Source: Cognatundibacterium oligocarboniphilum (lineage in GTDB: Bacteria > Pseudomonadota > Gammaproteobacteria > Burkholderiales > Burkholderiaceae_D). From it: a stretch of DNA of 64,000 bases. The notes beneath the pieces were generated by a model. That model was not told the DNA's origin. It did no database searches and saw nothing but the letters and a program-made list of their open reading frames with translations. The translations under genes and the position numbers were made by a program. Each line of letters begins with the position of its first letter. The stretch's first letter is position 1. Below, piece after piece: positions 1 to 47,271 of this stretch. Location of the stretch: positions 1 to 64,000 of the forward strand of contig NZ_JABXYJ010000005.1 in assembly GCF_013377855.1 (NCBI RefSeq), written 5' to 3'.

Positions 1-147
1 GAGCGCGGGCGCAGAAAGAGCGAACGCTTGAATTCCGCGGGAGGCAAAGACGGCAATCGCAGAATCAATATGGATAATTGTCAACACGAAATGATGCTGT
101 ACCGTTATAGCTACATTCAGTTATGAATGATTATTTCGGAGCCAGAA

Positions 148-43504: not shown

Positions 43505-45124
43505 TTATCTGGCAGAATCATCTGGAAAATACGGCGCGACCTGATAGGCATTTCTGCCATGCTGTTTTACTTCATACATAGCAGCGTCTGCCTGTGCCAG
43601 CAGGTCTTCCGGTGAAAATACGCTAGCAGGCGTGTAGCTGATACCGATACTGGTCCCGATCTGCACCTGGGTATCGGGACTGATGTCAATCCGTCGTGAT
43701 GCCTGGGAAATAATTTTCCGTGCAATCTCTTCAGCCTTACTGAGGTCATCCAGTCCTCTTAGCAGCAGCACAAACTCATCGCCGCCAAGACGGGCAATGA
43801 AATCGGTTTTTCTCAGCGTGCGCAACAGAATTTTCGCGAAATGAACCAGTACGATGTCACCGGCACTGTGACCATAAGTATCGTTCACGGTTTTGAATTT
43901 ATCGAGATCAATCAACAGTAAAAAGAACGGGCATCCGGTCCCATTGGCGTTTTCTTTCGCCAGTCGCGCCATTTCCCTGTCCAGTCCGAGCCGATTGTTC
44001 AGTCCGGTAAGATGATCAGTGACCGCCAGCTGATGCGCTTTTTCCTCTTGTTGCTTACGTTCAGTGACATCATTAATCAGTCCTTGCAGCACGCCATTCT
44101 CGGCAGCATGTACAACGATATTGAGCCACTTCTTTTTATTCTGACCGAGTTCAATATAAAAATCTTCAGACAGAATCTGTGCTTCGCTGATGGCGGAATG
44201 AATCATCAGATGCAGTCGCAACTCCTGTCCGCTGATTCGCTCCAGTAAAGCATGTGAAGCAATTGTCTGGCCGGTGGGAAGATCAAGCATGCGTGCCAGT
44301 GCCTGATTATAGGAAATCAGCTCGCCGTGTTCGTTCATCTGAAAGATGCCGGTTTCGGCATTATCGAAGATGGCCTGGAACTTTTTTTCTCCCAATGCAT
44401 GCTGGACCCGCAGATGTCTTTCTTCATCCAGCGATGACACCAGATCGGAAATAATATTATTCACATCATTGACCAGTTGTCCCAGTTCATCACCTGTATA
44501 CCGGTGTGGATGCGGCAGTAATTCCCCGTTTTGGGGAAGTAATGTATGTAGCCGGTCAGAAATCGATTTAATCGGATTTGTCACCATCCGGTACATGATA
44601 TAAACCAGTACCAGCGCGATCAGCACGGTCTGGAACAGCAGCAGTGCAACGACGAAACGCGCTTTGGATGTGCTGTGTTCAAAAACCGCATCCTGATTGA
44701 TCTCCATATGAACGGTGCAGACTTTTTCTGAACTGTTGAACGGAGATGAGATATCCCGATCGATGTGGTTGATATGTTTTCGGAATAAAGTAGCGATACT
44801 GGGGTGGTGAGGTGGTGTGGGTTTGACCAATTTAGCAAGGATCGTTTCTTTGACGTTGATGCTGACCTGACTGATATCTGCATTTCTGCCCAGGCCATTC
44901 ACGACTTCGTTGGCCAGATTCTGATCGTTGATGTAGCAGGCAATACTGGCGGTATTTTCAAGGGATGCCAGCAAGTCATAAACTGTGTTAACAGTCTGAT
45001 CCTGTTCTTCATCGACAAAATAAATGTAGCTGGCAACGGAAAATAAAATGCCAATGAAGAAGCTGACTCCAAGTACTGCGGAGGCACTGCGAAAGACGAT
45101 ACTATTACGGATCAGTTCACGCAT
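43505..45124 (-). CDS. Membrane diguanylate cyclase: CHASE8-like, HAMP, PAS, GGDEF
   Basis: Synthesises cyclic-di-GMP. Domains in order: first membrane helix (about 8-34); a periplasmic sensor of about 130 residues with ASLENTASIACYINDQNLAN, a CHASE8-type pattern as in YfiN; second membrane helix (about 165-188); HAMP (NPIKSISDRL); PAS (QAIFDNAETGIFQMNEHG); and GGDEF. The active-site motif is intact (ARLGGDEFVLL, about residue 445). An RxxD inhibitory site (RKTD) sits five residues upstream, so product feedback is expected. No EAL domain follows. ATG 45124 was chosen over TTG 45130. Last gene of the porin-binding protein-cyclase operon; the periplasmic domain is the likely input. Confidence 0.9.
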   Translation of the reverse strand: MRELIRNSIVFRSASAVLGVSFFIGILFSVASYIYFVDEEQDQTVNTVYDLLASLENTASIACYINDQNLANEVVNGLGRNADISQVSINVKETILAKLVKPTPPHHPSIATLFRKHINHIDRDISSPFNSSEKVCTVHMEINQDAVFEHSTSKARFVVALLLFQTVLIALVLVYIMYRMVTNPIKSISDRLHTLLPQNGELLPHPHRYTGDELGQLVNDVNNIISDLVSSLDEERHLRVQHALGEKKFQAIFDNAETGIFQMNEHGELISYNQALARMLDLPTGQTIASHALLERISGQELRLHLMIHSAISEAQILSEDFYIELGQNKKKWLNIVVHAAENGVLQGLINDVTERKQQEEKAHQLAVTDHLTGLNNRLGLDREMARLAKENANGTGCPFFLLLIDLDKFKTVNDTYGHSAGDIVLVHFAKILLRTLRKTDFIARLGGDEFVLLLRGLDDLSKAEEIARKIISQASRRIDISPDTQVQIGTSIGISYTPASVFSPEDLLAQADAAMYEVKQHGRNAYQVAPYFPDDSAR

Positions 45125-45143
45125 GCGCAAGATACGTAGTCAG

Positions 45144-45572
45144 TTAAGGATTGACGATGTAAATCAGTTTAACTCTTCTGTCTATTTTTTTCCTGTCAAT
45201 GTAGCCGATGGCGCCTTTATTTTCGCTGACGATATTAATGACTTCGTCCGCAGAGTCAAGCTGGCGCGGCGGGTAACCTTGACCTGAAAAGCGTAGACGC
45301 GCCCAATAGGAGTTGATTTCTGCGATTTCCTTTCCGACCAGTTGTTCATAGAAAGTCGCTTTTTCTTCATGGGCGCTATTCAGGTCCAGCGGAAGCACGG
45401 TGAGTCCATTGGGTAGTTTATGGTTACGTCCCATATACAGATTAATGACTTCATCTTTACTCAATTTATCAATACCGCTGTTATGATTGGCAATGACAAC
45501 GAGTTCAGCCGCTGCGCTGCCGCACAGCAGCCACGTCATTAACAGCAGGATGCGCAACGGGGTTGTCGTCAT
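45144..45572 (-). CDS. PstS-like periplasmic substrate-binding protein
   Basis: A 142-residue exported protein. The signal peptide is MTTTPLRILLLMTWLLCGSA with probable cleavage near AAA-EL. The rest resembles a short phosphate-type binding protein: VIANHNSGIDKLSKDEV, IYMGRNHKLPNG-like segments, and ADEVINIVSENKGAIGYID, the last of which is a hallmark of PstS-like proteins. It is about half the usual PstS length and no ABC permease or ATPase is nearby, so sensing is more likely than transport. It starts three bases after the porin stop, and its own stop is 19 bases before the cyclase ATG. Confidence 0.82.
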   Translation of the reverse strand: MTTTPLRILLLMTWLLCGSAAAELVVIANHNSGIDKLSKDEVINLYMGRNHKLPNGLTVLPLDLNSAHEEKATFYEQLVGKEIAEINSYWARLRFSGQGYPPRQLDSADEVINIVSENKGAIGYIDRKKIDRRVKLIYIVNP

Positions 45573-45575
45573 GGG

Positions 45576-46820
45576 TCAGAAAATAAAATTAACAGCAAGA
45601 CTCAGCAGTGTCGCCCGGCCATTCCAGTTGGGCAGGTCGTTCCGGATCAGAAAACTGCCCTGACTGCGGATATGATCAAGCTGAACTTTAACGCTGACAT
45701 TCTCTGACAGGTCATACCGGACGCCTGCCGTTATGGTATTTTGCTTGCTGAGCTGATCATTCAGTCCAGTGCTTAATGCTTGCAGGAATTCCTGTACTTC
45801 CGGCGGCAATTGCGGACTGATCTGAATGTTGGCACGATCTCCGCTGGGACGGACACCGGAATAGGTCACATAGGGTGTCCAGTTTTTGATCCGGTAGCTG
45901 GCCGATAGATAAGCGGCATCTGACCCCGGGAAAAACAGACTGCCTGAATTGATACGGCTCAACATCAACTGTGCCTGCAAGGGGCCTTTATCATACACGA
46001 TCCCTAACGAGGTGTAGTGTGCATTTTTATCCTGCATCAACACTTTCTGTGATAGTTGGGAGGCGCCCGGATAAAACAATTGAAATGTCGGGTTATTCAG
46101 AACCGGTGTAATCAGATTGTTGACCGGGTTTTCGTTGGCGAACCGTAGTTGTGAATGGCCAATACGGAATGTCCAGTTACCTTGCTGGTACTCCACATGG
46201 CCGCCCGTAAGTTTGGAGCCATTGAGTGAAAAAAACTGGTTAGAAATGCCGTTATAAATTTTTTCTCTCGCCAGCCCGGAGAAAACTTTAAGCCTGATCT
46301 GACCTTGACCGAGATCCCGGTTGATGACGGTATCAAAACCGTCAAAATAGGAAACGATCAGATTGCCAAAAAAATCAATCGGCGGGCGTACCCAGATGTA
46401 GGAGTAGCCGATATTGCGCGAATCTGCAAGCAGATAAACATCAAAGCCAAGACGACCCAGCCGGAGCTGCACGGTGTCGCTGGGTGAATATTTTGCATAA
46501 GCCCAGGTGACTTCCGGCTTATATTCATTCGGACCGTAGCGGCTGACTACCTGAACTGCAGCATCAACGACATCATTCAGATGCGCTTCTGCCTGCAAGC
46601 CCAGATTGCTGTCCATATTGGTGTCATTCTGACGCGTACGGCCGGTTCCGGTGTTTTGTGAAAGGTCCCGGATGATATCTGCGTCACGGGTGCTGTTATG
46701 CACCACGCCGATTGTGCCAAATCCAGTAATGGTAAAATTACTGCTTTCGTCTGCGAGGGCAGTCAGGGAAATGAGCGTACTGAGCGCGAAAATGAAAAAG
46801 CGAGGCAATAGACTGAACAT
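45576..46820 (-). CDS. Outer-membrane porin-like beta-barrel
   Basis: A 414-residue exported protein with a signal peptide (MFSLLPRFFIFALSTLISLT, cleavage near ALA-DE) and regular amphipathic strands ending in the aromatic terminus SLAVNFIF, whose final Phe is the usual assembly signal. The FTITGFGTIGVVHN start and AYAKYSPSDTVQLRLGRLGF resemble general porin_4-type proteins. ATG 46820 was chosen because AGGA lies seven bases upstream; GTG 46841 is also in frame. It is the first gene of the operon. The solute is unknown; phosphate or another anion is a guess from the binding protein next door. Confidence 0.82.
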   Translation of the reverse strand: MFSLLPRFFIFALSTLISLTALADESSNFTITGFGTIGVVHNSTRDADIIRDLSQNTGTGRTRQNDTNMDSNLGLQAEAHLNDVVDAAVQVVSRYGPNEYKPEVTWAYAKYSPSDTVQLRLGRLGFDVYLLADSRNIGYSYIWVRPPIDFFGNLIVSYFDGFDTVINRDLGQGQIRLKVFSGLAREKIYNGISNQFFSLNGSKLTGGHVEYQQGNWTFRIGHSQLRFANENPVNNLITPVLNNPTFQLFYPGASQLSQKVLMQDKNAHYTSLGIVYDKGPLQAQLMLSRINSGSLFFPGSDAAYLSASYRIKNWTPYVTYSGVRPSGDRANIQISPQLPPEVQEFLQALSTGLNDQLSKQNTITAGVRYDLSENVSVKVQLDHIRSQGSFLIRNDLPNWNGRATLLSLAVNFIF

Positions 46821-46932: not shown

Positions 46933-47271
46933 TTATTTTTTCTCAGCAGTTTTTTGCTTGGCAATAATCATGTCTTTAATGCCATTATAAACATCTTCGG
47001 TCAGGATTTTACGGGACAATAATTCATCTTTGCCGCGGTATGGGCGACCTTTGATGATGGCATCGGAACGGGCATCGCCGATTTTCGGCAACGTCGCGAG
47101 TTCTTTTTTGCTGGCGCTGTTGATGTCCATCAGCTCTGCTTTGGCGCTGGCGCTGGCGCTGGCGGCTGCGCTGGCCGGAGCTTTCTTTGCATCATCTTTG
47201 GCTGCCAGTGCAGTACCTTGCAGACCCAGACAGATACTGGCGAGTACCAGAAGTTTAGCGTAATTCTTCAT
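46933..47271 (-). CDS. ComEA-like helix-hairpin-helix protein
   Basis: Periplasmic DNA-binding protein of 112 residues. A signal peptide (LLVLASICLGLQGTALA) is followed by an Ala/Ser/Lys-rich linker encoded in part by tandem hexamers, then a double helix-hairpin-helix domain (DINSASKKELATLPKIGDARSDAII). In competent bacteria ComEA binds incoming DNA in the periplasm and passes it to ComEC, encoded at 14913-17423. The protein is also called a ComEA-family HhH protein in species not known to be competent, so function is probable only. Confidence 0.88.
   Translation of the reverse strand: MKNYAKLLVLASICLGLQGTALAAKDDAKKAPASAAASASASAKAELMDINSASKKELATLPKIGDARSDAIIKGRPYRGKDELLSRKILTEDVYNGIKDMIIAKQKTAEKK
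47142..47159. repeat. Tandem TGGCGC hexamer repeat in the comEA-like gene
   Basis: Three perfect copies of TGGCGC at 47142-47159, followed by a near copy, encode the Ala-Ser linker of the ComEA-like protein. In-frame copy-number change would only lengthen or shorten the linker. Confidence 0.8.

Follow-up and report, generated by a model that had tools for sequence, protein, structure and literature searches.

A putative cross-envelope sensing cassette combining a porin, a single-lobe PstS-like protein and an exchangeable membrane receptor

Introduction

What could a short relative of the phosphate-binding protein PstS be doing when its gene lies between those of an outer-membrane porin and a diguanylate cyclase? 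The question is raised by three genes in a stretch of 64,000 nucleotides from Cognatundibacterium oligocarboniphilum (assembly GCF_013377855.1, contig NZ_JABXYJ010000005.1, positions 1 to 64,000; hereafter, the window). A preliminary description, made from the sequence of the window, proposed that the short protein reports a solute that enters through the porin and thereby gates cyclic di-GMP synthesis. Comparison of the relatives of this locus shows that porin and short protein form an obligate pair and that the gene trio is a conserved unit, whereas the receptor is swappable: at least five outputs are used with the same pair. On balance, and with modest confidence when all steps are taken together, we favor the view that the trio belongs to a widespread, modular, YfiBNR-like cassette for sensing across the envelope that works by docking. 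The fixed part of this cassette would be the dedicated porin together with a single-lobe PstS-fold protein, and the variable part would be the membrane receptor.

The gene trio

All three genes are encoded on the minus strand, in the order porin, short PstS-like protein, diguanylate cyclase, with intergenic gaps of 3 bases (porin/short protein) and 19 bases (short protein/cyclase); layout, strand order and spacing are thus as originally described. The features are:

45576..46820, minus strand: outer-membrane porin; Porin_4, 53.6 bits (cut-off 27); 414 aa from the ATG at 46820, with a C-terminal Phe
45144..45572, minus strand: short periplasmic PstS-like protein, predicted to be a single lobe; 142 aa with the signal peptide, mature form of about 120 aa
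43505..45124, minus strand: inner-membrane diguanylate cyclase; 539 aa; transmembrane segment (TM), periplasmic CHASE8-like sensor, TM, HAMP, PAS, GGDEF
44663..45019, minus strand: periplasmic CHASE8-like sensor domain, the stretch used for alignment A6
44930..44944, minus strand: conserved pentapeptide IACYI, cyclase residues 61-65 counted from the ATG at 45124
44456..44596, minus strand: HAMP linker; PF00672, 14.4 bits, under the cut-off of 25
44042..44383, minus strand: cytoplasmic PAS domain; PAS_8, 21.3 bits (marginal; cut-off 21.8), E 2.4e-4; PAS_7 to residue 363
43550..44026, minus strand: GGDEF domain; PF00990, 151 bits; GGDEF motif and RxxD I-site intact

The porin gene starts at the ATG at 46820 or, possibly, further upstream at a GTG (46841), and its stop codon ends at 45576. 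Porin_4 is the only Pfam family above the cut-off, and by this profile the protein is a Gram-negative porin with predicted channel activity. The short protein has an apparent signal peptide, recognized by eye. For the cyclase, the mechanical call is a TTG at 45130, and the ATG at 45124 agrees with the relatives; the stop ends at 43505. The I-site RKTD is located five residues upstream of the intact GGDEF motif, and with both the active site and the I-site in place this protein is, judging by sequence, a diguanylate cyclase, as already proposed. The other domains assigned to it are less uniform: PAS is marginal, HAMP, which is below the threshold here, is matched (E <= 0.1) by 54 of 66 relatives, and the CHASE8-like label comes from relatives, with no match of the domain itself. 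The placement of one protein in each envelope layer is supported.

The porin and the short protein form an obligate pair

Relatives were collected from a phylum-level set of 398 Pseudomonadota genomes and a family-level set of 294 genomes; in the phylum-level set, scoring was limited to 4 candidates per genome for the porin and 10-11 for the others, so that paralogue counts are minimum values. The short protein is present in 144 of the 294 family genomes and in 63 of the 398 Pseudomonadota genomes. The porin subfamily, detected with the cassette-porin profile, is found in 64 of the latter and co-occurs with the short protein in 63 (P 4e-73); in the sole porin-only genome (G438), the porin occupies positions 6-911 of its contig, and its neighbor could have been lost because the gene abuts the contig end. 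Across the 398 genomes, a porin match is located at most 700 bp from the short protein at 113 of 122 short-protein places, and a short protein at most 1200 bp from the porin at 115 of 118 porin places.

Three sets of loci were compared: 60 phylum-level loci (from the 122 short-protein places, drawn from 53 genomes), 60 family-level loci (hand-picked from the listed matches, namely the best 30 or so plus others further down) and 80 named loci (from 282 confirmed relatives, with Undibacterium over-represented). The porin adjoins the short protein in 60/60, 56/60 and 76/80 of these loci, respectively, so the linkage expected from the window holds in relatives. The spacers within cassettes are short (medians of 5 and 7 bp; for either spacer, 83 of 92 fall inside -20..60), and either the porin or the short protein can come first. 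The linkage exceeds chance, and a chance neighborhood is ruled out by the co-occurrence and adjacency counts. Porin_4 is matched by 12 of 33 members of the porin subfamily at E <= 0.001. In a scan of 200 loci, the short protein was nowhere naturally fused to the porin or the sensor.

The possibility that the trio are neighbors through the history of a genus alone, with no joint function, is disfavored and seems to us highly improbable. The exact order porin, short protein, CHASE8-like cyclase is indeed best kept among Undibacterium relatives, but it recurs in Betaproteobacteria, in Gammaproteobacteria and in genomes labelled Acidobacteria or Holophagaceae (metagenome-assembled records, possibly misbinned); moreover, both gene orders occur, and the phyletic co-occurrence extends to 63 of 64 genomes.

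Multiple copies are seen in some genomes. Tandem short protein/porin pairs are present in L152, L153 and L156, and a tandem fragment of the short protein in L122. The short protein is encoded 8, 10 and 9 times in three genomes of one genus (G242, G260 and G271, respectively); the copies retrieved first (L065-L067) have an adjacent porin and no receptor. Trios are also found in plasmid records, labelled as porin, 'phosphate ABC transporter substrate-binding protein' (ABC, ATP-binding cassette) and chemoreceptor or EAL protein. In L260 (Alteromonas mediterranea plasmid MRG65-300), the short protein and an unannotated porin-sized gene adjoin type IV CRISPR csf genes. Upstream of the trio in the window, on the same strand, is a small gene (46933-47271) with an apparent helix-hairpin-helix (ComEA-like, by eye), and an open reading frame (ORF) of similar size is present at the same place in several relatives, e.g., L041 and L044. 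Promoter and terminator scans gave chance-level results (5 vs 5.6; 4 vs 3.7).

The receptor is interchangeable

An output domain encoded on the same strand within 3.3 kb of the pair is found in 47/60 phylum-level, 49/60 family-level and 71/80 named loci, compared with 11/52, 15/60 and 4/48, respectively, at 3.3-6.5 kb. At the phylum level, the receptors beside the pair are methyl-accepting chemotaxis proteins (MCP) in 15 loci, histidine kinases in 12, GGDEF proteins in 11, GGDEF-EAL proteins in 8 and a SpoIIE protein in one, with none in 13. The family-level loci contain GGDEF (23) and GGDEF-EAL (21) proteins, one MCP, one histidine kinase and one receptor with a sensor only, again with none in 13; one of these receptor-less loci (L072) does hold a GGDEF-EAL gene that was overlooked by the rule. 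Among the named loci, there are 36 GGDEF, 25 GGDEF-EAL, 7 histidine kinase and 8 sensor-only receptors, and 4 loci with none. Examples of every output type were confirmed by Pfam.

The cyclase of the window is accordingly one of at least five outputs, which the preliminary description had overlooked together with a second copy of the pair in the same genome. The genome encodes one further porin relative, which adjoins the one other short protein; in this second cassette (G000:C29:276847-278446; locus L078, 4845-8590), the porin, the short protein and a chemoreceptor of the four-helix bundle type (4HB_MCP) are on the same strand.

The enzymatic sense of the output might also be reversed. Both the GGDEF motif and the I-site are intact in 44 of 47 GGDEF-only CHASE8-like proteins, whereas the GGDEF-EAL proteins of the same sensor class lack the GG[DE]EF motif in 18 of 26 cases and the I-site in all (0/26). 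Because the motif is mostly lost and the I-site is absent, the GGDEF-EAL versions probably break down cyclic di-GMP. Two individual receptor genes are of separate interest: in L119 (3250-4722), a cassette sensor is fused to a phosphatase of the SpoIIE type, which is uncommon as the output of such a receptor, and in L057 (4606-6223), the cyclase gene is broken over three reading frames and intact in the close relative L060, so that it is either a pseudogene or the product of a sequencing error.

The short protein corresponds to one lobe of PstS

The short protein alone gives no Pfam family match and only a weak match to the PstS model TIGR02136 (E 0.0042, positions 122-218 of 295). The profile of its family matches the middle lobe of PstS only (4exl, E 7.1e-9, residues ~76-186 of 265). 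Searches of PDB sequences returned nothing for the short protein as a single sequence, nor for the porin, either alone or as a profile. The AlphaFold2 model of the short protein (pLDDT 96.8, pTM 0.90) superimposes on one lobe of phosphate-binding proteins (1twy_B, Z 15.5, 107 aligned residues, root mean square deviation (rmsd) 1.8, residues 104-236; 4exl_D, Z 13.8). On this model, the short protein is half of a binding protein, a single PstS lobe. The family is further characterized by YWARLxFSG and PP segments, with a conserved FSGxGxPP loop at the end of the lobe.

The ligand Arg of PstS, which we take to be the Arg of the R..GSGT motif that binds phosphate, can be located through the 4exl alignment; the corresponding column contains Arg in 0/22 and 0/71 relatives and is mostly Leu or Gln. 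The neighboring Asp63 is acidic and nearly invariant (21/22 and 69/71). A canonical two-lobe solute-binding protein can thus be rejected on the grounds of the single lobe and the absent ligand Arg. The role of solute reporter is likewise unsupported, because the second lobe needed to enclose a ligand is lacking and the ligand Arg is absent. There are no ABC importer genes beside the short protein in the window, and on a different contig (C32) a full-length PBP_like_2 (PstS-type) gene adjoins pstC and the gene of a second permease; a component of an ABC importer is therefore rejected as well, in line with the earlier view of a binding protein lacking an importer.

It is still conceivable, if quite unlikely, that the single-lobe protein is a solute-binding co-receptor that holds its ligand as a dimer of lobes or jointly with the sensor. 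The homology to PstS and PBP_like_2 and the conserved loop at the lobe end would fit this explanation, and solute-binding proteins that activate cyclases, kinases and chemoreceptors are a known class (PMC9602780); the single lobe, and a ligand-Arg column that lacks Arg and is flanked by an acidic residue, argue against it.

The CHASE8-like sensor and its similarity to YfiN

The periplasmic domain of the cyclase is homologous to those of cassette histidine kinases, GGDEF-EAL proteins and the SpoIIE phosphatase. The sensor of the window itself does not match the CHASE8 profile (PF17152), so that its CHASE8-like label, which rests on relatives, is to be read as a family-level prediction: 8 of 30 relatives match at E <= 1 (best 1.4e-6) and 20 of 66 at E <= 0.1 (best 1.8e-6). 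When the 398 genomes were searched in reverse, using the sensor domain alone, there were 26 strong matches, and 24 of these adjoin a short protein. The CHASE8-like sensor is therefore nearly private to the cassette; this argument rests on the scarcity of non-cassette copies, because profiles A6 and A7, derived from cassette members, are biased towards cassette copies. Among 13 weaker matches (E 1e-10 to 1e-6), 7 were retrieved, none with an adjacent short protein or porin.

When the alignment of relatives (A5) was compared by hhalign with Escherichia coli DgcN (YfiN), with the TM and HAMP regions included, 176 columns were aligned (E 6e-5, probability 65%), and kinship with the periplasmic domain of DgcN/YfiN is likely. 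In this alignment, IACYI falls on AAVVF of DgcN (residues 66-70), the patch proposed by Malone and co-workers (PMC3375315) as the YfiR-binding site of YfiN. The IACYI region is the most conserved segment of the sensor, with A62 invariant and C63 and D67 present in >=90% of 66 rows. A covarying disulfide C63-C136 was considered and dropped because the pattern of alignment A2 (both Cys in 15 rows, neither in 14, the first only in 1) is not repeated in A5 (27 both, 35 first only, 4 neither).

The AlphaFold2 model of the TM-sensor-TM-HAMP region (pLDDT 81.7, pTM 0.55) has an alpha-beta order like that of Cache/PAS domains. Among solved structures, it comes closest to the LapD-type periplasmic domain 4u64 (Z 12.4; rmsd 3.5 over 128 aligned residues), a score to be read with the caveat that Z values below about 13 arise easily with long-helix models and may reflect a mere common arrangement. 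Further structural matches include WalK and CitA-like domains, and the model resembles Cache/PAS ligand domains, those of CitA and TlpA among them.

Co-evolution of the short protein with the sensor

When the sensor class of the partner is mapped onto a tree of 182 distinct short proteins, it switches 8 times, compared with a mean of 52.0 and a minimum of 46 after shuffling (153 labelled rows). For partners of the CHASE8-like class, the same tree shows 7 changes of output, against a shuffled mean of 36.9 (90 rows). The short protein, therefore, tracks the sensor, while the outputs were exchanged several times. Over 70 loci, the distances between short proteins correlate more strongly with those between sensors (r 0.84) than with those between GGDEF domains of the same polypeptide (0.58) or between porins (0.58), with a bootstrap difference between the sensor and GGDEF correlations of 0.07 to 0.35; the rank correlations are 0.73 for the sensor, 0.63 for GGDEF and 0.69 for the porin. 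The 70 loci are too few for direct-coupling analysis of the short protein against the sensor or the porin. The tree and distance results support a partnership of the short protein with the sensor, short of proof of contact.

Proposed mechanism

By analogy with YfiBNR, which extends to the architecture and the aligned patch, we infer contacts of the single-lobe protein with both the sensor and the porin, as well as the sign of regulation and the identity of the signal. The single-lobe protein would bind the membrane-distal hydrophobic patch of the sensor, where IACYI corresponds to the YfiR-binding AAVVF of YfiN, and the docked protein would lock the cyclase in one state. The porin might set the amount of free single-lobe protein, through flux or occupancy of the channel or through binding at its periplasmic face. 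A change would then be relayed from HAMP through PAS to GGDEF, altering cyclic di-GMP. We also entertain, tentatively and with considerable doubt, a version in which the porin itself is the sensor and the single-lobe protein, docked at its periplasmic mouth, relays channel occupancy or assembly to whichever receptor adjoins. If so, one outer-membrane input would drive cyclic di-GMP synthesis or breakdown, phosphorelays, a phosphatase and chemotaxis in different bacteria.

Several observations weigh against docking of the single-lobe protein on the sensor patch. By the rule used, 13/60 phylum-level and 13/60 family-level loci have no adjacent receptor. The sensors in cassettes vary between CHASE8-like, dCache_1, dCache_3 and four-helix bundle domains, the last in 4HB chemoreceptors; many pairs serve dCache or 4HB receptors, and therefore one docking patch cannot hold for all: in those cassettes, the contact must differ. 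For two of the strong sensor matches, the kinases of G562 and G430, the 10-12 kb retrieved contain neither a short protein nor a porin. The periplasmic part alone aligns with DgcN at only E 0.0056 (probability 6.5%). Finally, co-evolution of the binding protein with the CHASE8-like domain, suggested as a check in the preliminary description, is apparent over all 70 loci, but the contrast becomes smaller in GGDEF-only loci (n=47; Spearman 0.84 for the sensor, 0.79 for GGDEF, 0.92 for the porin) and disappears in GGDEF-EAL loci (n=23; 0.68, 0.71 and 0.47, respectively).

Some of these observations would also be expected if the porin and the single-lobe protein were a unit for uptake or capture of a solute that the receptors sense directly, with the operon shared for its usefulness and no contact between lobe and receptor. 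We give this explanation limited weight. It is consistent with the receptor-less pairs at both taxonomic levels, with the diversity of the sensors and with the resemblance of the periplasmic models to Cache/PAS ligand domains. It has to contend, however, with a conserved block that lacks an inner-membrane transporter (ORFs were inspected for part of the loci; all loci were searched for the porin, the short protein and the receptor classes only), with a single lobe devoid of the PstS ligand Arg, and with the privacy of the sensor to the pair (24/26), which is not predicted by co-expression alone. If docking is correct, the compactness of each three-gene cassette and the output swaps that occur in nature would make this route from the outer membrane to the receptors directly testable.

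Comparison with known systems

NspS-MbaA and LuxP-LuxQ are examples of receptors activated by solute-binding proteins. As in such systems, a periplasmic protein with the fold of periplasmic binding proteins is encoded here beside a transmembrane cyclase, kinase or chemoreceptor; unlike the complete two-lobe proteins of those systems, the cassette appears to use one lobe without the PstS ligand Arg, plus a dedicated porin. With PstS and PBP_like_2 proteins the short protein shares the fold of the middle lobe, but it has about 120 mature residues compared with 240-320, no adjacent ABC genes and no ligand Arg. The periplasmic output domain of LapD and Cache-like sensors provide the closest solved fold (4u64) to the sensor model; LapD, in contrast, is a degenerate receptor that binds LapG.

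The closest parallel is YfiBNR (TpbB). Both systems combine outer-membrane, periplasmic and inner-membrane cyclase parts, and their probably related periplasmic domains, CHASE8-like in the cassette, share a conserved hydrophobic pentapeptide where the two align. The periplasmic part of the cassette, however, is predicted to be a single PstS lobe rather than YfiR (DUF4154), and its outer-membrane part is a porin barrel rather than the Pal-like lipoprotein YfiB. The YfiR family (DUF4154, PF13689) has 0 matches in the genome of the window at E <= 0.01, with a positive E. coli control, and no Pal/OmpA-like lipoprotein of the YfiB kind is found in the operon, the outer-membrane gene of which is Porin_4. 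Against the NCBIfam DgcN/YfiN model NF007423, the cyclase scores 184.7 bits, under the cut-off of 325, with the best stretch (353-522) in the GGDEF part. Membership in YfiBNR is rejected given the lack of DUF4154 and the replacement of YfiB by a porin; because its periplasmic protein is unrelated to YfiR and its outer-membrane protein to YfiB, the trio falls outside that family, and the parallel with unrelated first two parts drawn in the preliminary description is borne out. Also, the porin is nearly obligate in the cassette, whereas YfiB is often absent in divergent Yfi systems (section 12 of PMC3375315).

The exchange of outputs is itself a point of likeness. Malone and co-workers described swapping of the outputs of the modular YfiR-YfiN[PAS] core for GGDEF-EAL and histidine kinases (section 12 of PMC3375315), with MCP outputs mentioned in a discussion passage, and modularity as such is therefore already known. 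What appears to be new is the input formed by a porin and a single-lobe protein: our literature searches, for which most subscription journals were outside coverage so that a description might have escaped us, returned no description or named system of this composition, as had been supposed. If the proposed mechanism is correct, the family annotated as 'phosphate ABC transporter substrate-binding protein' serves as the periplasmic connection within a common sensory module and is not part of a transporter, and the cassette would represent a second way, using proteins unrelated to YfiR and YfiB, of signalling from the outer membrane to cyclic di-GMP, kinase and chemotaxis receptors.

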